In this document: positions 1-42,093 of the stretch, in pieces
Position numbering within the stretch: the stretch's first letter is position 1
Layout of the letters: each line of letters begins with the position of its first letter
Source of the DNA: an uncultured Pseudomonadota bacterium
Lineage (GTDB): Bacteria; Myxococcota_A; UBA796; GCA-2862545
NCBI GenBank assembly: GCA_903861005.1
Contig: CAIOSP010000054.1
Span: 1 to 64,000, forward strand
Length of the DNA: 64,000 nucleotides
Direction of reading: 5' to 3'
Notes under the pieces: generated by a model
Databases searched by the model: none
What the model was told of the DNA's origin: nothing
The model's input: only the letters and a program-made list of their open reading frames with translations
Made by a program: the position numbers and the translations under genes

Positions 1-548
1 GCCGGGAGGCGACGTGGGGAAGCCAGGAGATCGGCCAGGATCAGGTCCTGGCGAGATGTGTGGGATCCTCAGACCCGGCGCCCGCCGCGCGGCAGGCCTA
101 CGTTGAGGTGCTCGACGCGTCGTCTCCGTCCCAAACCCGTCCCACAGGGGCTCGGGAAGGGGGGAGCGGCCACTCGCCACAACGCGACAACAGAGATGCG
201 ACCAAGTCGAACCGCGGTTCAAGTGAGACCAATGTGAGATGCGGAAGGGGGGGGGCTCGAACCCGAGGAGGTCAATCCACAATAGTGGTGCCCACGCGAC
301 GGTTTGCCAGAGCAGAGGCTGGTTTTGGGGCTCCTCTTCCGTTTTCATTCGGGCGTATAGGCGGTGATGCGGGGCGATGCCTCGCGATCGCTTGGCCCCA
401 ATTGGGTCCCACGCAGGCGGGTTTCTTGGCGACTCCTAAGCGCGAGGGGGAGACCTCGGGGCCCTTTCCCCACGGCCGGGACAGGGCTCGCGCGGCTGAT
501 GTGCGAGTGTGATATGCGTCGGCTAGTCACCACATGAAGGCATCACTC
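1..548. other. left edge without a supported gene
   Basis: Apart from the truncated tRNA-Leu copy (listed separately) I see no gene here that I can support. Open frames on both strands have compositions rich in Arg, Gly and Pro and no recognisable motif, signal peptide or good ribosome binding site, so they look like chance frames in GC-rich DNA. The last stretch before the VapB start is short and should carry the promoter of the toxin-antitoxin pair, but I cannot point to convincing -35/-10 boxes. Confidence 0.5.
203..264 (-). repeat. truncated tRNA-Leu 3' end plus terminator arm (candidate att site)
   Basis: This is an imperfect copy of 2030-2087. A 17-base block, caagtcgaaccgcggtt, is identical in both; so are gagatgcggaagggggg and ctcgaaccc. 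Read on the minus strand the copy contains the 3' strand of the tRNA-Leu acceptor stem, part of the T arm, and one arm of the downstream terminator hairpin; the rest of the tRNA is absent. A truncated tRNA 3' end in direct orientation to an intact tRNA is the classic footprint of integration by a tyrosine recombinase. A decayed tandem tRNA duplication is the alternative. The G run here is 9 bases against 6 in the intact gene. Confidence 0.7.
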
Positions 549-761
549 ATGCGCACCACCATCGACCTCCCCGAGGCCCTCCTCGACGAAGTCCAGCGGA
601 CCACCCAGGCGAGCACCCGTCGCGAGGCCCTGGTGATCGCGCTGGAGGACTACCTTCGTCGTCAGAGGCGGGCGCGGGTGATCAGTGCGGCCGGCTCGAT
701 GGACCTCGACCTCGATGTCCGCGCCCTGCGCGCCCTTGGGAATGGGCGTCGCGATGCCTGA
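549..761 (+). CDS. vapB: VapB-family ribbon-helix-helix antitoxin
   Basis: The predicted 70-residue protein begins MRTTIDLPEALLDEVQ, the short beta strand and first helix typical of ribbon-helix-helix VapB antitoxins, followed by a second helix (residues about 20-40, rich in Arg). The C-terminal tail is acidic and then basic and would occupy the toxin's active site. I chose the ATG at 549 over an in-frame ATG at 534 because GAAGG sits 8 bases upstream and the family motif starts there. It overlaps the downstream toxin start by 8 bases, as in most vapBC operons. Known for the family: the antitoxin neutralises VapC and autoregulates the operon through DNA binding. The pair lies between the two tRNA-Leu 3'-end copies. 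Confidence 0.85.
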   Translation: MRTTIDLPEALLDEVQRTTQASTRREALVIALEDYLRRQRRARVISAAGSMDLDLDVRALRALGNGRRDA

Positions 762-1155
762 CGTCCTGGTGGACACCACGGTCTGGATCGAGTTCTTCCG
801 GAGAACCTCGACGGCCCCGTGGCGCGCCGTGCTCGTCGACCTCCTTGAGCGCGACGCGGTCGTCCTTGTGGACCCGATCGTCGCAGAACTGCTGTACGGC
901 GTTCGCACCGAGCCGGAGCGAGCGGTGGTGCTCGACCTCGCCGCCGGCGCGCGGTCGCTGCCGGTCGATCGTCAGACCTGGATCGCGAGCGGTGACCTCG
1001 GGAGGTCGTGGCGGAGCCGCGGGCGGACGTTGTCGTTGGTCGACTGTCTCCTCGCGACCGTCGCGATGCGAGAGGGTTGCCCGCTCTGGACGCTGGACGA
1101 GGACTTCGCGCCGCTGGTCGCTGCGGGGGAGCTCATCCGGTTTCAGCCAGGGTGA
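754..1155 (+). CDS. vapC: VapC-family PIN-domain ribonuclease toxin
   Basis: This 133-residue protein has the four acidic positions of a PIN nuclease: Asp7 in VDTTVW, Glu45 in PIVAELLYG, Asp97 in LSLVDCLLA and Asp115 in TLDEDF. Family knowledge: VapC toxins are Mg-dependent RNases that cut tRNA or rRNA and are held inactive by VapB. The ATG at 754 lies inside the end of vapB, so translation is probably coupled, and the length is normal for the family. The gene is apparently intact, so the module could be active and could stabilise the flanked segment. The cellular target cannot be read from sequence. Confidence 0.9.
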   Translation: MPDVLVDTTVWIEFFRRTSTAPWRAVLVDLLERDAVVLVDPIVAELLYGVRTEPERAVVLDLAAGARSLPVDRQTWIASGDLGRSWRSRGRTLSLVDCLLATVAMREGCPLWTLDEDFAPLVAAGELIRFQPG

Positions 1156-1291
1156 CGGTCGGCGGTGGCTCCGCTGTTCGGCCCAGATTCGAATTCCACT
1201 GTGCCTGGACCTTACGGCGGTACACGAACGTCAACCCTGCGATCGTCGTCGGCGACGCGCTTCGGAAGGCGCACGGGACCAACCTGGGCTG

Positions 1292-1819
1292 TCACGCCCT
1301 CGCGTACGGCGCGGGGAGGTCCACCAGCGCCGTCAGGCGTTCGGTGGCGATCCCGATCTCCCGCGCGCGTCCGCCGCGCAGCGCGTCGACCAACGTGAAC
1401 ACGTCGCCCAGTTCCGGGTTGCGTCGCGAGGCGGCAACGACCGACGGGTGCAGGGGCTCGACCGCGTTTCCGTCGATCGTCCCGTCCTCCGCGGCCCACA
1501 CGAGCGGCGCCGTGTACCGGACGCGGCCCTCGAAGGCGCGCGCTGCGAAGCTCGTCGGAAGGCCGCGCACCACCTGCTCGCGATCGACGACGAGGGGGAA
1601 CAAGTAGCGAAGCACGGGCAACAGCTCGGACAGCGCGATCCGGTTGATCCAGCCGTCTCGGACGATGTCGGCCACCTCCAGGCGGCGCAGCGAGCGATCG
1701 AGCGACGACCACGGCACGTCCAGCTCGCGGTGGACGTCGGCCGGGCGCCACGTGCCGCGCACGTGCTGCTGATGGGCCGCGGTGAGGGCGACGGCGACGT
1801 CGACAGCTTGGAGGGACAT
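1292..1819 (-). CDS. winged-helix-like hypothetical protein
   Basis: This is a 175-residue protein with no signal peptide or membrane segment. Residues about 20-60 (RPADVHRELDVPWSSLDRSL, then a strand-rich part with RDGWINRIALSELLPVL) read like a winged helix in which a promoter-recognition helix is followed by a wing; the C-terminal half (LHPSVVAASRRNPELGDVF) is helical. I do not recognise a named family. The GGAAG site 7 bases before the ATG supports the start. It is convergent with vapBC and shares the segment between the tRNA-Leu copies. It may be a regulator, or the antitoxin-like half of a system whose partner was lost; both ideas are inference. Confidence 0.55.
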   Translation of the reverse strand: MSLQAVDVAVALTAAHQQHVRGTWRPADVHRELDVPWSSLDRSLRRLEVADIVRDGWINRIALSELLPVLRYLFPLVVDREQVVRGLPTSFAARAFEGRVRYTAPLVWAAEDGTIDGNAVEPLHPSVVAASRRNPELGDVFTLVDALRGGRAREIGIATERLTALVDLPAPYARA

Positions 1820-1825
1820 GGGGCG

Positions 1826-1842
1826 CTTCCGATTTTAGGAAG
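1826..1842 (-). promoter_or_regulatory. inverted repeat overlapping the ribosome binding site
   Basis: CTTCC and GGAAG form a 5-base inverted repeat around a 7-base AT-rich centre that reads TAAAATC on the minus strand. The GGAAG half is also the Shine-Dalgarno-like element of the winged-helix-like gene, and the centre resembles a -10 box. It could be an autoregulatory operator or a small hairpin hiding the ribosome binding site. A 10-base palindrome, cacaattgtg, lies further upstream at 1869-1878. Both are short and may be chance. Confidence 0.3.
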
Positions 1843-2010
1843 TTTGGCCACCACGGGGCCGCGGCGCCACAATTGTGCTCGAGCTACGCCGAACGCAGAC
1901 GGTCGCCGCTCAGGGCGACGCCTCTGGCGGCGTGGCGCGTTTGGCGTCGTTTTCGCCACGCGACGGTCCCACTTCGCGTCGGGACGGGGGGATCGTCGAT
2001 CGGCCACAAA

Positions 2011-2047
2011 GAAAAAACCGCGGTTCGAACAAGTCGAACCGCGGTTT
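2011..2047 (-). terminator. rho-independent terminator of tRNA-Leu
   Basis: Read on the minus strand, a perfect 14-base-pair stem (AAACCGCGGTTCGA pairing with TCGAACCGCGGTTT, plus-strand arms 2015-2028 and 2034-2047) with a 5-base loop ends in six T residues. It starts 18 bases after the tRNA-Leu 3' end, so it should terminate the tRNA transcript. One arm of it is part of the sequence duplicated at 203-264. Confidence 0.92.
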
Positions 2048-2087
2048 CTTGTGGGACCATGAGATGCGGAAGGGGGGACTCGAACCC
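2030..2087 (-). repeat. intact-side copy of the tRNA-Leu 3'-end direct repeat (candidate att site)
   Basis: This is the partner of 203-264, in the same orientation and about 1.8 kb away. It covers the T arm and acceptor 3' strand of the intact tRNA-Leu gene plus the proximal arm of its terminator. If the repeats are attachment sites, the segment between them (vapBC and the winged-helix-like gene) is the inserted DNA, lying on the 3' side of the tRNA as expected for tRNA-targeting elements. Confidence 0.65.
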
Positions 2088-2146
2088 CCACACCTCTCGG
2101 CTCTGGCTTCTGAGACCAGCGCGTCTACCGATTCCGCCACTTCCGC
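2065..2146 (-). tRNA. tRNA-Leu (anticodon CAG)
   Basis: The minus strand folds as a class II tRNA. The acceptor stem is GCGGAAG paired with CTTCCGC, with discriminator A. The D arm is TGGCGGAATCGGTAGACGC, and the anticodon stem CTGGT/GCCAG has loop CTCAGAA, giving anticodon CAG. There is a long variable arm (AGCC GAGA GGTGT region) and a T arm GGGGG TTCGAGT CCCCC. CCA is not encoded. Reads CUG leucine codons, which are abundant in this GC-rich genome. It is followed by a strong terminator, and its 3' end is duplicated at 203-264. Confidence 0.95.
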
Positions 2147-2157
2147 AGGGCGGGGCC

Positions 2158-2186
2158 GCTTTAGTGTGGCGCGCGGGCGGCGTCAA
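2158..2186 (-). promoter_or_regulatory. probable tRNA-Leu promoter
   Basis: On the minus strand TTGACG (plus 2181-2186) and TAAAGC (plus 2158-2163) are separated by 17 bases and end 11 bases before the mature tRNA 5' end. The spacing and -35 box fit a sigma-70-type stable RNA promoter; the -10 box is only a moderate match. Confidence 0.5.
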
Positions 2187-2251
2187 GGAGGTGGTGACCT
2201 CTTGCCTGCGGAGCAGGCGTGCCTACCTTGCGGCCCGCAGGAGGGCGCACC

Positions 2252-2953
2252 ATGGGCATCTTCGACTTTCTGACCAAGGAAGGCAAGTTCAAGACGCACG
2301 TGCGCCGGATGTCGGACGCCTACGCGCTCCCGGAAGATCGTGAGACCGCGTCGCGGGCGCTGGACGAGGACGGGTCGCCGCGGGCGTTGCTGGCGCTGCT
2401 GACCCGGTTCGACATCAACATCAGCTCCCAGATCAAGGACCAGGACGAGAAGGACCGCCTGTTCCAGGTTCTCCGCAAGCACGGCGCCGAGCCGCTCGCG
2501 GAGCCGGTGCGGGTGTGGCTGCGCAAGTGCCGTCAGTACGCGTGGCCGCTGCGGCTGCTCTCTGAGCTTGAGGGGCTGAATGCCGCTGCCACCATGGTCT
2601 ACGAGCTGCTGGCGGGGGACGCGGGCAAGGCGACGTTCGAGCCGGAGCGCCGCAAGCACCTGCTGGTCTGGCTGTCCGAGCACAAGCACCCAGGTGCCCT
2701 GGCGGCCGTGACGCCCTTCCTCAAGGACTTTGACGAGGAGGTCCGCTACGCCGCGGCCGAGGTCGCCATCTCCCAGGAGGACGACGCCGCGCGCGAGCCG
2801 CTGCTGGCCCGGCTGGCGGACTCCAAGGAGGAGAGCCTGCGGATGAAGCACCGCATCGCGCAGGTCTTTCGCCAGCGGGCCTGGCCTGTGGGCGAGCTCG
2901 CGACCGTCCCGGATGGCTTCGCGGTGCGGGACGGGCTCGTCGTCTCGGTGTGA
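2252..2953 (+). CDS. HEAT-repeat-like cytoplasmic protein
   Basis: This 233-residue protein starts MGIFDFLTKEGKFKTH after a GCAGGAGGG ribosome binding site; an upstream in-frame ATG at 2219 has no such site. It has no signal peptide. Paired helices recur through the chain (for example HPGALAAVTPFLKDFDEEV, then RYAAAEVAISQEDDAAREPL near residues 150-195), as in HEAT or PBS-lyase-type repeats, which act as protein-binding scaffolds. The N-terminal part (residues 1-60) is Lys/Arg-rich. I cannot name a partner. It stands alone between the tRNA and the lipoprotein pair. Confidence 0.7.
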   Translation: MGIFDFLTKEGKFKTHVRRMSDAYALPEDRETASRALDEDGSPRALLALLTRFDINISSQIKDQDEKDRLFQVLRKHGAEPLAEPVRVWLRKCRQYAWPLRLLSELEGLNAAATMVYELLAGDAGKATFEPERRKHLLVWLSEHKHPGALAAVTPFLKDFDEEVRYAAAEVAISQEDDAAREPLLARLADSKEESLRMKHRIAQVFRQRAWPVGELATVPDGFAVRDGLVVSV

Positions 2954-3054
2954 GGCTGGGGTCAGCGTCGGGCCGGTCGCGTTGACGCGGACCCCGCGCC
3001 GCGAAAGAGAGCAGGACACCGGTGGAGACATTCGCCGCCGGGGAGGAAGCACCT

Positions 3055-7147: not shown

Positions 7148-7984
7148 TCAGGGGCAGGCGATGCGCTCGGGCCCCAGCTCCATCAGCTTGATCAGCGTCG
7201 ACTTGCCGCCCTGCGTCGGGCAGACCTCGTCGGCGCGCGCTTGGGCCTTGGACCAGCTCGGCGTGTACTCGATGTTCAGCACCGGCTTGTCCGCGTCCAG
7301 GAACGGGTCGAGGCGCGCGCACTCGTCGTACTGGAAGCACTGCTCGTTGAGCTGCCAGTCGAACCAGTCGACCAGCTCCTCGATCTGGTCCAGGTCGTTC
7401 TTCAGCCCCACCGCGAGCCCGCGCTTGTGCGCCTCGTCGGCGAACCAGCGGTTGAACACGAGCTGGTCGGTGGCGCGCAGGCCCAGGCCGTTTGGGTTGG
7501 CGTAGCCGTCGACGTTGTCCGGATCGACGCCGTCGCAGCCGCGCGCGACCGCCACGTCCAGCCGCGCCGCGAGCAGGTCCTTCACGGCGGGCAGGCGGTA
7601 GTCCAGCCAGCGCTCGCCGGGCCAGCCGTCCAGCTTGGCGCCCAGCGCCTCCTCGGGGAACGGGTCGGCGTCGTCGCGCCAGTCCTCCCACGATCCGAAC
7701 GAGACGTAGCAGATGCGCTTGCGATCGGAGAGCGCGTCCCAGACGTCGTCGGGCGTGTCGAACAGGTCGACGTCGTAGGCCTCCACGTCGACGGTCGTGT
7801 CCATCTTGCCGGAGAACTGGATCTGCCAGCTCAGGCCCGCTGCGGGTGTCCACGAGGCGGGCGGCTCGGGGTCACCGGGCACGTAGTCGACGCAGCCGTC
7901 GCCCTGATCCACCTGGCCCTCGGGGCAGGTCTCGTCGGGCGCGCAGGCGGTGAGCAGCAGGGCGGCGAGCAGCGTGGTTCGCAT
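7148..7984 (-). CDS. GH114/TM1410-like glycosidase lipoprotein
   Basis: This 278-residue lipoprotein has signal MRTTLLAALLLTAC. The mature protein carries a Cys-containing spacer (CPEGQVDQGDGC), then a TIM-barrel-like domain with WQIQFSGKMD, the strand YVSFGSWEDWR, GCDGVDPDNVDGY and VGLKNDLDQI, and ends with NIEYTPSW. These segments match the GH114 (endo-alpha-1,4-polygalactosaminidase) family, in which the acidic residues of the D(P)DNxD motif are implicated in catalysis. It is convergent with the GH36-like gene, 33 bases apart. The family is known to attack galactosamine-containing extracellular polymers, so a role in degrading matrix polysaccharide is a reasonable inference. Confidence 0.8.
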   Translation of the reverse strand: MRTTLLAALLLTACAPDETCPEGQVDQGDGCVDYVPGDPEPPASWTPAAGLSWQIQFSGKMDTTVDVEAYDVDLFDTPDDVWDALSDRKRICYVSFGSWEDWRDDADPFPEEALGAKLDGWPGERWLDYRLPAVKDLLAARLDVAVARGCDGVDPDNVDGYANPNGLGLRATDQLVFNRWFADEAHKRGLAVGLKNDLDQIEELVDWFDWQLNEQCFQYDECARLDPFLDADKPVLNIEYTPSWSKAQARADEVCPTQGGKSTLIKLMELGPERIACP

Positions 7985-8032
7985 GGGGTGAGCGTAGCAC
8001 GCGCGATACGCTGGTCGACCGGAGCCGCGCCC

Positions 8033-16806: not shown

Positions 16807-18004
<1,198 letters not shown>

Positions 18005-36729: not shown

Positions 36730-39700
36730 ATGGCGGATCCGACCCACATCGTCGTGCGCAACGCGCGCACACACAACCTGCGTGGCATTGACGTGGACGT
36801 GCCGCGGCACGCGCTGGTCGTGTTCACGGGTGTGAGCGGCTCGGGCAAGTCGTCGCTGGTGTTCGACACCATCCACCTGGAGGGCCAGCGCCGCTTCATG
36901 GAGTCGCTGTCGTCCTACGCGCGCCAGTTTCTGGGCCAGATGGAGCGCCCGGAGGTCGACTCGGTGGAAGGCGTCAGCCCCACGGTGTCCATCGACCAGA
37001 AGACGGTGAACCGCAACCCGCGCTCCACGGTGGGCACCACCACCGAGATATTCGACCACCTTCGGCTGCTATGGGCGCGCCTGGGTACGCCGCACTGCCC
37101 GATCTGCGACACCCCGGTCTCGCGCCTGGGCGCCGGCCAGATCGTCGACGAGATCATGACCCGTGGCGCCGGGCACCGCGTGTCGATCCTCGCGCCGGTG
37201 GTCCGCGAGCGCAAGGGCGAGTACCGCAAGGAGATGACCGACCTGGCGCGCGACGGCTGGGTGCGCGCGCGCGTCGACGGCGAGATGATCCGCCTGGACG
37301 AGCCGCCCGAGCTCGACCGCTACAAGAAGCACACGATCGAGGTCGTCGTCGACCGGCTGACCCCGACCGCGGCCGATCGCGGCCGCCTGGCCGAGGCCGT
37401 GGAGACGGCGCTGCGCATGGGCGAGCGCGCGGTCACCGTGCTCACCGACGAAGAGGACGCGCGCACCTACGGCACCGAACGCGCCTGCGTGAACCACCCG
37501 GAGCAGACCATCCCGGAGCTGGAGCCGCGGCTCTTCTCGTTCAACAGCCCGCAGGGCGCGTGCCCCACCTGTGACGGCCTCGGCCTGCTCGCCGCGTTCG
37601 AGCCCGATCGCATGGTCGATTCGCGCAAGCCGATCCGCGACGCGGTCCTGGTGTTCAACGCCGACGGCAAGATCCCGTTCGGCTCGCTGACGGTCGACAC
37701 GCTCGTCGCCATCGCCAAGGCGCTGGGCGCGGACCTCAAGGCGCCGGTGTCGTCGTGGACCGCGGCGCAGCGCCACAAGCTGCTCCACGGCGACGAGAAC
37801 ATCCTCTGGCGCTCCGAGACCCGGGACGGCCGCCAGCGCCAGCGCGAGTGGGCGGGCCTGATCCCGATGATGGATCAGATCTGGCACTACACCAAGTTCC
37901 CCGGCTTGGAGAAGTACCGGACCGAGGCCCCGTGCCCCGACTGCCACGGCGCGCGCCTGAGCCCCATCGCGCGGGCGGTGCGCTTCCGCGGCCTGGCGAT
38001 CCATGAGGTCTCCGGCATGACCGTGCGCGACGCGCACGCGCTGTTCGAGGGCATCGGCCTGGAAGGCGACGAGCGCCTGATCGGCGCGCTGCTGCTGCAG
38101 GAGATCCGCGCTCGCCTGACCTTCCTCTCCGAGGTCGGTCTGGACTACCTGTCGCTGTCGCGCTCGGCCGCCACGCTGTCCGGCGGCGAGAGCCAGCGCA
38201 TCCGACTGGCCAGTCAGGTCGGCAGCGGCCTGCAGGGCGTCACCTACGTGCTCGACGAGCCGAGCATCGGCCTGCACCCGCGCGACAACCAGCGCCTGCT
38301 CCACGCGATCCGTCGCCTGCGCGATCGCGGCAACTCGGTGCTGGTGGTCGAGCATGACGCCGAGACCATCCTCGCCGCGGACTGGGTGGTCGACATCGGG
38401 CCGGGCGCCGGTCGCGAGGGCGGCCACCTCGTCGCGTCGGGGCCGCCGTCGCGCGTGATGCGCGGCCCGGGCCTCACCGCTGAGTACCTGCGCGGTGAGC
38501 GGTTCATCGCGCTGCGCGCCGAGCGCCGCGTGAGCGATGGCCGCGAGCTGGTCGTGCGCGGCGCGCGCATCCACAACCTGAAGGACGTCACGCTGCGGCT
38601 GCCGCTCGGCATCATGAGCGTGATCACGGGCGTCAGCGGATCGGGCAAGTCGTCGCTCGCGTTCGGCGTGCTGGAGCCTTCGCTCGTCAGCATGCTCGAA
38701 GGCGGCACGCCGATCGACTGCGACGCCGTCGAAGGCGTGGAGCACCTCGGATCGCTCGTGCGCATCAACCAGCGCCCTATCGGCCGCACGCCGCGCTCCA
38801 ACCCCGCCACCTACACCGGCGCGATGGACCTGATCCGTGACCTGTTCGCCGCCACCCAGGAGGCGCGCGTCCGCGGCTACACCAAGTCGCAGTTCTCCTT
38901 CAACGTGCCCGGCGGCCGCTGCGAGTCGTGCGAGGGCGCCGGCGTCCGTACGATCGAGATGCAGTTCCTGCCCGACGTCGAGGTCCCGTGCGAGACCTGC
39001 GGCGGGCGTCGCTTCTCGCGCGAGATCCTCGACATCACTTGGAAGGGTCGCAGCGTCACCGAGATCCTGGAGCTGACGATCGGCGAGGCGCTCGAGGTGT
39101 TCGCCGGCGTGCCCAAGCTCAAGCGCATCCTCCAGACGCTGGTCGACGTGGGCCTGGATTACGTCGCGCTCGGGCAGTCGAGCACCACGCTGTCGGGCGG
39201 CGAGGCGCAGCGCATCAAGCTCGCCTCCGAGCTGCACAAGCCGTCGCGCGGCCACACGCTCTACCTGCTCGACGAGCCCACTACGGGGCTTCACTGGCAG
39301 GACGTCGACCGCCTGCTGCACGCGCTGGACCGGCTGGTCGACGCGGGCAACACCGTCGTCATCGTCGAGCACCACACCGACGTGATCAAGCGCGCCGACT
39401 GGATCGTCGACCTGGGCCCCGAGGGCGGCGACGCGGGCGGACGCATCTTGGCCGAGGGCACGCCCGAGCAGATCGCGCGGCAGGACAGCGCCACCGGCCA
39501 CGCGCTCGCGGCGCTGCCTGAGCTGGGCGGCGTCGCGCCGATCGTCGCCGACGCGCCGCTCGTGTACGACGGCGCCCGCGAGGGCACACCCACCGCGATC
39601 GTCCTCGAAGGCGCGCGCCAGCACAACCTGCAGAGCGTGGACGTCCGTATTCCGCACGGTAAGCTCACCGTGATCACGGGGCCCTCGGGCAGCGGCAAGA

Positions 39701-42093
39701 CCTCGCTCGCGTTCGACACCATCTTCGCGGAGGGTCAGCGCCGCTACGTCGAGTCGCTGTCGACCTACGCGCGGCGCTTCCTCGGTCGCCTGGATCGCGC
39801 GGCGCTCGATCGCATCGAGGGTCTGCAGCCCGCGATCGCGATCGACCAGAAGTCCGCGTCGCACAACCCGCGCTCCACGGTCGCCACGGTGACCGAGATC
39901 CACGACGTGCTGCGCATCCTGTACGCGCGCATCGGCGTGCCGCACTGCCACCTGTGTGACCGCGCGCTGCTCGCGTCGAGCCCGGGGCAGGTCGCGTCGC
40001 GGCTGGCGAACGCGCGGCCGGGCGCGGGCTGGCTCGCGGCGCGCTTGGTGCCCGACGAAGATCCGGACGAGCGCCTGGGCCTGCTGGTGCGCGACGGCTG
40101 GCAGCGCCTGCTGCTGGCGGGCAAGGGCGGCACGTTCACCGAGCTGCAGCTCGACGACAAGAAGGCGAAGAAGGAGCTGTCCAAGGGCGCGCTGCTCGTG
40201 CTCGACCGCTTCGATCCGGCCACGTCGGAGCTCACGCGCGTCGCTGAGGCCGCGCGCACCGCGTACCACCTGGGCCACGGCCACGTGCAGTTCGTCCCGC
40301 GCGCGGGCGGCGATGTGCTGCGCTTCACGGAAGGTCTGGTGTGCCCGACGCACGGCCCGGTGCTGCCAGAGCTGACGCCGCGCCACTTCTCGTTCAACAG
40401 CCGACTCGGCATGTGCGGCATCTGTGACGGCCTGGGCGTGGTCGAGCGTTTGGTGCTCAAGACGCCGACCATCGTGACCTGCCCCCGCTGCGACGGCGCG
40501 CGCCTCAAGCCCGAGGTGTTGGCGGTCACGCTGGGCGGTCGCAACATCCACGAGCTGTCGACGCTCACCGTGGACGAGGCGCACCTGGAGGTCGACGGCT
40601 GGGACCTGCACGGCGAGGCGGCGACGATCGCCGCGCGCCCGCGTCAGGAGCTGGCGCGCCGCCTGCGCTTCTTGATCGACGTGGGCCTGGGCTACCTCTC
40701 GCTCGACCGCGCCGCGGACTCGCTGTCCGGCGGCGAGAGCCAGCGCATCCGCCTGGCGAGCCAGCTCGGCAGCCAGCTCACGGGCGTCACGTACGTGCTC
40801 GACGAGCCGACGGTTGGCCTGCACCCGCGCGACACCGATCGCCTGCTCAAGTCGCTCGAGGGCCTGCGCGACTTGGGCAACACGGTGGTCGTCGTCGAGC
40901 ACGACCCGGAGACCATCGCGCGCGCGGACCACGTGATCGATCTCGGCCCCGAGGCCGGTCGTCACGGCGGGAACGTGGTCGCGTTCGGCACGCCCTACGA
41001 GATCATGCAAAACCCCGCGTCGGTCACCGGCCCGTGGCTGTCGGGCGCCGCGTTCATCCCCACGCCCAACACGCGCCGCAAGGGCGACGGCGGCGTGACG
41101 CTGATCAAGCCGCGCCTGCACAACCTGTCGATGGACAAGGTGCGCTTCCCGCTGGGCGCGTGGACGGCGGTCACCGGCGTCAGCGGCTCGGGCAAGTCGT
41201 CCCTGGTGATGGACACGCTCGCGCCCGCGCTGCGCGAGAGCCTGGGTCAGGACGTCGAGGTCGGCGAGCACAAGGACCTGTTCATCGAGGGCTCCTTCGA
41301 CGGCGTCGTGATCGTCGACCAGCGCCCGATCGGCGTGTCACCGCGCTCCACGCCCGCCACCTACGGCGGGACGATGGACAAGATCCGCGCGCTGTTCGCG
41401 GAGTCGCTGGGCGCGCGCGAGCGTGGCTGGACCGCGTCGCGCTTCTCGTTCAACGCCCAGGGCGGTCGCTGCTCGCACTGCGAGGGCCGCGGCGCGATCC
41501 TGATCGAGATGCACTTCCTGCCCGACGTGTGGGTGGAGTGTCCCGAGTGTCACGGCCGCCGCTTTGATCGCGAGACGCTCGCGGTGCGCTGGGGCGGTCA
41601 CTCCATCGCCGACGTGCTCAACATGCGGGCGGATGAAGCGCGCGATCTGTTCGTCGCGCACCGCGCGCTCAAGCGCTCGCTCGACGCGTTGTGCGACGTG
41701 GGCCTGGGCTATTTGACGCTCGGCCAGCCCGCGACCACGCTGTCGGGCGGCGAGGCGCAGCGCGTGAAGTTGGCGACCGAGCTGATCGCGCGGAGCGGCA
41801 AGAAAGTCTACGTTCTGGACGAGCCGACCACCGGACTTCACCTGAATGACGTGGCTAAGCTCGTCGGCGTGCTACACCGCCTCGTAGACGCAGGACACAC
41901 CGTGATCACGATCGAGCACAACCTAGATGTGATCCTGCAAGCGGATCTGGTGATCGAGCTAGGCCCGGAGGGCGGCGCCGGCGGCGGCAAGCTGCTCGCG
42001 CAGGGTACGCCCGCGCAGATCCAGTCCAAGAAGACGGCCACCGGACTCGCGCTCGCCGCGCGCGCGGAGCGTCTCTCGGAGACGCGCTCGTGA
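36730..42093 (+). CDS. uvrA: double-length UvrA excinuclease subunit
   Basis: At 1787 residues this is about twice the usual UvrA (roughly 940). Two complete UvrA units lie in tandem (about 1-940 and 955-1787). Walker A loops SGSGKSS/T occur near 34, 633, 983 and 1482, and LSGGE signatures near 483, 820, 1332 and 1671; each is followed by LDEP Walker B. Several CxxC zinc motifs are present (for example [32 protein letters not shown]). UvrA finds bulky DNA lesions with UvrB. Family knowledge: chlamydial UvrA is of the same double length. It overlaps the next zinc-finger gene by 4 bases (GTGA). A normal-length second uvrA could exist elsewhere. Confidence 0.93.

Follow-up and report, generated by a model that had tools for sequence, protein, structure and literature searches.

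A CIME-like segment carrying vapBC and an orphan PDC-M21A gene at the 3' end of a tRNA-Leu(CAG) gene

Described systems and the tRNA-Leu repeat

Cis-mobilizable elements (CIMEs) are decayed ICEs or IMEs that keep their att sites without recombination genes, and classical CIMEs have a published size of 1.2-13 kb (PMC7563491). The window analysed here, bases 1-64000 of contig C54 in a 5.8-Mb genome of 223 contigs, includes a segment that shares with them direct att-like repeats at the 3' end of a gene, the lack of a recombinase, few cargo genes and a size within that range, but its repeat is longer and more diverged, and no related ICE or IME was seen in tandem on the assembled contig. The segment may be described as CIME-like by its content, a likeness that we do not extend to full membership. 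Islands at tRNA genes that carry a tyrosine integrase, such as the tRNA-Val island of genome G074, have in common with the window a repeat composed of the tRNA 3' end plus the terminator, and in the G074 island a gene of the PADLOC family PDC-M21A lies about 1 kb from the distal repeat, as it does here. The segment differs from such islands in having neither an integrase nor their other genes, and in its length of 1.7 kb compared to 11-57 kb.

Two further systems are represented among the cargo. PDC-M21 is a PADLOC phage-defence candidate that pairs a winged-helix protein with an AbiEii-like nucleotidyltransferase (PDC-M21B); the window shares the PDC-M21A gene but is missing PDC-M21B. The vapBC pair is an ordinary member of the VapBC type II toxin-antitoxin systems, with the same overlapping genes and intact PIN acidic motifs, and no difference from them was seen. 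The islet is ordinary in kind, and its interest lies in the repeated association of PDC-M21 with att scars.

Table 1. Coordinates of the features at the tRNA-Leu locus of the window and of the tRNA islands in which PDC-M21A lies near a truncated tRNA 3' end
Feature	Position	Strand	Evidence or remarks
IS4/IS50-type IS end, cut by contig end	1..72	-	outer inverted repeat CTGAGGATCCCACACATCTCG, also given as CTGAGGATCC...
Distal att-like scar	117..264	-	25 nt of tRNA-Leu 3' end, decayed terminator, flank
vapB antitoxin (VapB_antitoxin family)	549..758	+	PF09957, E = 1.6e-10
vapC PIN-domain toxin	754..1155	+	PF01850, E = 2.5e-13; NF047959 above cut-off
Winged-helix protein, PADLOC family PDC-M21A	1292..1819	-	PDC-M21A, E = 1.2e-20
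Proximal repeat copy	1944..2087	-	tRNA-Leu 3' end, intact terminator (2012-2050), flank
Intact tRNA-Leu(CAG)	2063..2147	-	ARAGORN; Rfam RF00005, 61.8 bits
HEAT-repeat protein gene	2252..2953	+	PF13646; conserved tRNA-Leu(CAG) neighbour in the family
tRNA-Arg(TCT) island	G000:C75:3584-14597 (11 kb)		same genome as window; L135 + L225
tRNA-Arg(CCG) island	G264 (21 kb)		integrase PF00589, 4e-8
tRNA-Val(CAC) island	G074 (57 kb)		integrase PF00589, 5e-18, abutting and facing tRNA

The two repeat copies are 76% identical, with an E value of 3.5e-16 against the 5.8-Mb genome and a local score of 100, compared to a maximum of 30 in 500 shuffles of the same bases. The repeat takes in the last 25 nt of tRNA-Leu(CAG), the terminator and some 70 nt of further flank, and the homology reaches about 120 nt past the tRNA. 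A truncated tRNA-Leu 3' end in direct orientation, keeping one terminator arm, had been recognized at 203-264 in a sequence-only reading of this DNA, and both features were borne out, with a longer repeat: 203-264 is the better-conserved inner part of the scar, and homology extends out to about base 117. Within the tRNA part of the scar, 18 nt (with flank) are identical, after which the T-arm has an insertion of 2 nt and a single substitution. The terminator on the intact side forms a strong hairpin (-27.9 kcal/mol, z = -7.3), while that of the scar has one arm left and does not form a stable hairpin (z = +0.7). On the inner side the homology ends sharply inside the T-arm. Both copies have the same orientation, with the truncated one on the 3' side of the intact tRNA, a geometry that corresponds to attL (intact) and attR (truncated). 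As in a CIME or islet, direct repeats in attL/attR polarity stand at the 3' end of the target gene, and recombinase and conjugation genes are absent between them. The footprint of a site-specific element that the sequence-only reading had proposed is seen in att-like copies of the right polarity with an abrupt T-arm junction.

The contig starts at window base 1 inside an IS whose transposase N-terminus reads leftward. Five more copies of the IS were found in the genome (86-99% identity), mostly near contig ends, and their homology to the window stops at about base 72; the frame of the copy on contig C116 matched PF14706 Tnp_DNA_bind (E = 6e-15), the DNA-binding domain of Tn5/IS50-type transposases. 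This multicopy IS is probably the cause of the contig break at base 1. Because the contig ends within the IS, the outer flank of the scar is unassembled, and with 44 bases between IS and repeat and a contig start 116 bases outside the repeat, a clean empty site is unreadable in the window genome. When target-site duplication and inverted repeat were used to look for the contig on the other side of the IS, contigs C164 and C51 came up; neither carries IS sequence, and both were rejected as chance matches. The HEAT-repeat gene marks the undisturbed side of the integration site: its 5' side carries tRNA-Leu(CAG) in 15 of the 16 relatives in which the locus was fetched at length, with other genes intervening in some.

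Cargo between the repeats

The only genes identified between the repeats were vapBC and the PDC-M21A gene, the latter being the winged-helix-like gene of the sequence-only reading. That reading had also reported no recombinase in the segment, and this too was confirmed, both by the absence of a motif and by the absence of similarity to the integrases of the other islands described below; the reading frames were inspected directly, a first regular expression for tyrosine recombinases having missed two genuine integrases that were later confirmed by Pfam. Genes diagnostic of an ICE, an IME or a phage were not found in the segment.

PDC-M21A genes elsewhere are usually followed by a nucleotidyltransferase matching PDC-M21B, the two being adjacent in most homologous loci scanned. 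Nucleotidyltransferase similarity was sought at positions 1-3000 of the window and none was found. With PDC-M21A present and its PDC-M21B partner absent, the window holds an incomplete PDC-M21 system, and its PDC-M21A-type regulator is an orphan whose nucleotidyltransferase partner has been lost.

VapB and VapC are full length, their genes overlap, and the acidic residues of the PIN domain are kept in the VapC motifs VDTTVW, VAELL, VDCLLA and LDEDF, as expected of a VapBC pair. None of the 20 other family genomes searched contained VapC. Homologues of VapC with 52-60% identity occur in 4 genomes of one genus in another family, and VapB is 64-81% identical to the VapB of four genomes in another family; the HEAT protein, by comparison, is only about 35-42% identical between the window family and that of the vapBC homologues. 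The absence of vapBC from the family, taken with these identities, indicates a lateral pattern, and the pair is patchy and probably laterally acquired. For the suggestion that vapBC acts as an addiction module holding the element, we found no evidence.

Close relatives of this vapBC pair, at L144:7453-12989 in genome G021 and L145:1-1320 in G052, lie between direct repeats of 185-213 nt that are attC-like, with GCCGAAC...GTTCGGC boxes, and the G021 pair has the C-terminal part of an integron integrase (TIGR02249, 4e-34) in its vicinity; the G021 locus is apparently a chromosomal integron with toxin-antitoxin cassettes. An integron-cassette origin for the window vapBC was rejected, as a convincing attC-like repeat or box pair is missing in the window.

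The composition of 265-2010 was ordinary, with a GC content of 0.690 compared to 0.708 +/- 0.018. The comparison of tetranucleotide use that the sequence-only reading had suggested gave a distance that was equalled or exceeded by 18% of windows. These values are within the normal range, and a case for foreign origin from atypical composition was dropped.

The tRNA-Leu site and PDC-M21A loci in other genomes

Several relatives show traces of integration at the same tRNA. In G019, a broken tyrosine integrase is present in pieces about 170 bp from the tRNA-Leu 3' end, reading toward the tRNA; in G007, the last 22 nt of tRNA-Leu recur 219 bp downstream; and in G002, two complete tRNA-Leu(CAG) genes, 99% identical and 507 bp apart (L051:17014-17104 and 17521-17611), occupy the orthologous locus. 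Together, these indicate that elements integrate at the tRNA-Leu 3' end in this family. The sequence-only reading had held that its proposal would be refuted if all relatives carried the same segment with no empty site. The relatives do not all carry it, and neither vapBC nor PDC-M21A was found downstream of tRNA-Leu in other family members. The tRNA-Leu locus is absent from the assembly of the sole congener (G001), and in the other family relatives the HEAT protein is only 41-53% identical, too distant for an empty site to be read at base level.

Matches to PDC-M21A were found in 14 of 71 genomes of the class and 44 of 379 genomes of the phylum. Direct repeats of 54-268 nt (75-100% identity) bracket 6 of the 10 PDC-M21A loci in the order with both flanks available, the window included, versus 13 of 226 control positions (Fisher P = 2e-5), and most of the control repeats were accounted for by tandem paralogues or by the integron-like G021 vapBC locus. 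Where the origin of these repeats could be read it was the 3' end of a gene, namely tRNA-Trp plus terminator in G053 and msrA in G006; the repeat in G003 joins a gene end to the beginning of the gene that follows. In the congener, PDC-M21A and a nucleotidyltransferase lie between two msrA 3'-end fragments on contig C32 (L136:6415-6504 and 7934-8023), with no intact msrA adjacent, and the PDC-M21A regions of the congener and the window genome are 85% similar while standing at different genomic places. The sister species G053 and G038 share an orthologous 1.5-kb mini-island in which PDC-M21A and a nucleotidyltransferase lie between tRNA-Trp scars, and the two genomes stop aligning precisely where the distal tRNA-like 3' end lies, the behaviour expected at a recombination site.

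Three truncated tRNA 3' ends near PDC-M21A could be matched to the intact tRNA bounding the opposite side of an island (Table 1). The tRNA-Arg(TCT) island on contig C75 encodes an SNF2-type helicase, an AbiEi-family regulator with a nucleotidyltransferase-like gene, and PDC-M21A with a truncated partner; an integrase was not recognized in its 11 kb. In the tRNA-Val(CAC) island the repeat is the 3' half of the tRNA plus the terminator, as in the window. The distance from PDC-M21A to the distal scar is 0.6-1.8 kb in these three islands and 1.0 kb in the window. The 3' end of the integrase gene (G264:C100; L230:6126-7388) of the tRNA-Arg(CCG) island runs into sequence encoding GGFEPPTFGSGGP, a typical tRNA 3' end in frame, which is possibly a further att copy inside that island.

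Outside the order, most PDC-M21A loci are missing a long flanking repeat at short range, so the link between PDC-M21A and att sites rests there on orphan tRNA ends. A strict T-arm pattern found 6 of these at most 2.5 kb from PDC-M21A versus 0 farther away, and a looser pattern found 13 in 224 kb versus 3 in 377 kb of control DNA. An extrachromosomal mobile element as the carrier of PDC-M21A was considered and rejected, as no relatives were found on viral contigs and plasmid matches were distant (<60%). PDC-M21A is recurrent beside the distal att scars of tRNA islands, an association that has statistical support in small numbers of mostly draft genomes.

Origin of the segment

Our best reading is that the segment is an old, CIME-like, att-flanked remnant of 1.7 kb without an integrase, and it seems probable that an element once inserted itself at the tRNA-Leu(CAG) 3' end and that 265-1943 is what remains of it, or its cargo-only end. 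The att region of such an element would carry the tRNA end and terminator, and its integration, presumably by a tyrosine integrase, would leave an intact tRNA and terminator at 1944-2087 and the truncated 3' end with the other terminator copy at 117-264. The element would then have lost its recombinase, or may never have had one, and could move only through a tRNA-Leu integrase acting in trans, or in cis from a second element landing in one of the att sites. We infer the original integrase, the order of events and the present immobility from this arrangement. The degraded distal scar and the 24% divergence of the repeat suggest that the element is old and probably now fixed. In proposing an inserted cassette or element remnant, the sequence-only reading agrees with the att footprint, the patchy vapBC, the use of the tRNA-Leu site in relatives and the position of PDC-M21A near scars; atypical composition was not found. 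Weighing against this reading are the lack of a readable empty site, the ordinary composition, the absence of genes diagnostic of an ICE, IME or phage, and the repeat itself, since 76% identity over about 120 nt past the tRNA is more than a simple att core, and it needs either a long attP identity, as in G074, combined with age, or tandem related elements.

The latter is the main alternative: in a tandem array formed by accretion, 117-264 would be an internal att site with a second related element beyond it, interrupted by the IS, and the island would exceed 1.8 kb. Homology of both copies about 120 nt past the tRNA in the same direction is as expected of two related proximal ends. Behind its distal tRNA-Trp scar, G053 carries the same 54 nt (100% identity) that follow its intact tRNA, while G038 has different DNA at that place; the G053 element also contains another tRNA-like 3' end. 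Against this, the assembly stops at base 1, and the IS and the repeat are separated by only 44 bases. An array continuing past the IS is a genuine possibility, though we would sooner expect otherwise, and it overlaps with an integrase-less remnant rather than excluding it.

An ordinary duplication, by slippage during replication or by repair of a staggered break that left a long target duplication, could have caught vapBC and the regulator between two copies with no site-specific recombinase involved. Some PDC-M21A loci do have long and variable repeats around them (70-268 nt), and one repeat (L137) spans an intergenic region and two gene ends rather than a tRNA. The sharp T-arm end and a copy that is the tRNA 3' end in attR polarity speak against duplication, as do integrase-bearing elements that use the same tRNA in relatives and PDC-M21A genes that adjoin tRNA scars in integrase-bearing islands, and we judge it unlikely. 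A further rival, in which 117-264 would be all that is left of a decayed tandem tRNA-Leu gene and the genes between the copies unrelated intergenic acquisitions, has a parallel in the paired genes of G002. It is very improbable: the homology ends sharply in the T-arm, the tRNA 5' half is untraceable in 265-420 (402 of 500 shuffles score as high), and the terminator and 70 nt beyond it are still recognizable though under no stronger constraint. These observations speak against the decayed tandem array that the sequence-only reading had named as a counter-explanation.

An integrase-less remnant at tRNA-Leu would represent an island that has eroded to a toxin-antitoxin and defence stub, still bears its att scars and could be re-acquired by an incoming integrase. 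It also connects PDC-M21, an uncharacterized family of defence candidates, with the distal att ends of tRNA islands from several lineages, offering a handle for finding islands without an obvious integrase in fragmented metagenome-assembled genomes and a testable idea of why such modules sit at that end. A broader proposal, that PDC-M21 modules are more than random cargo and form a recurrent part of the distal att end of tRNA islands in this phylum, able to last or spread as mini-islands without an integrase, sited at the 3' ends of genes (tRNA-Leu, tRNA-Trp, tRNA-Arg, tRNA-Val, msrA), is doubtful and offered tentatively. Perhaps a tRNA-modifying toxin beside the scar makes loss of the island costly; a contribution of PDC-M21 to island maintenance is speculation.

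Direct repeats of another kind occur at 36844-42061 of the window, where tandem paralogous genes form repeats of 0.25-1.6 kb (68-73%) with a start-to-start spacing of about 2.5-2.9 kb.
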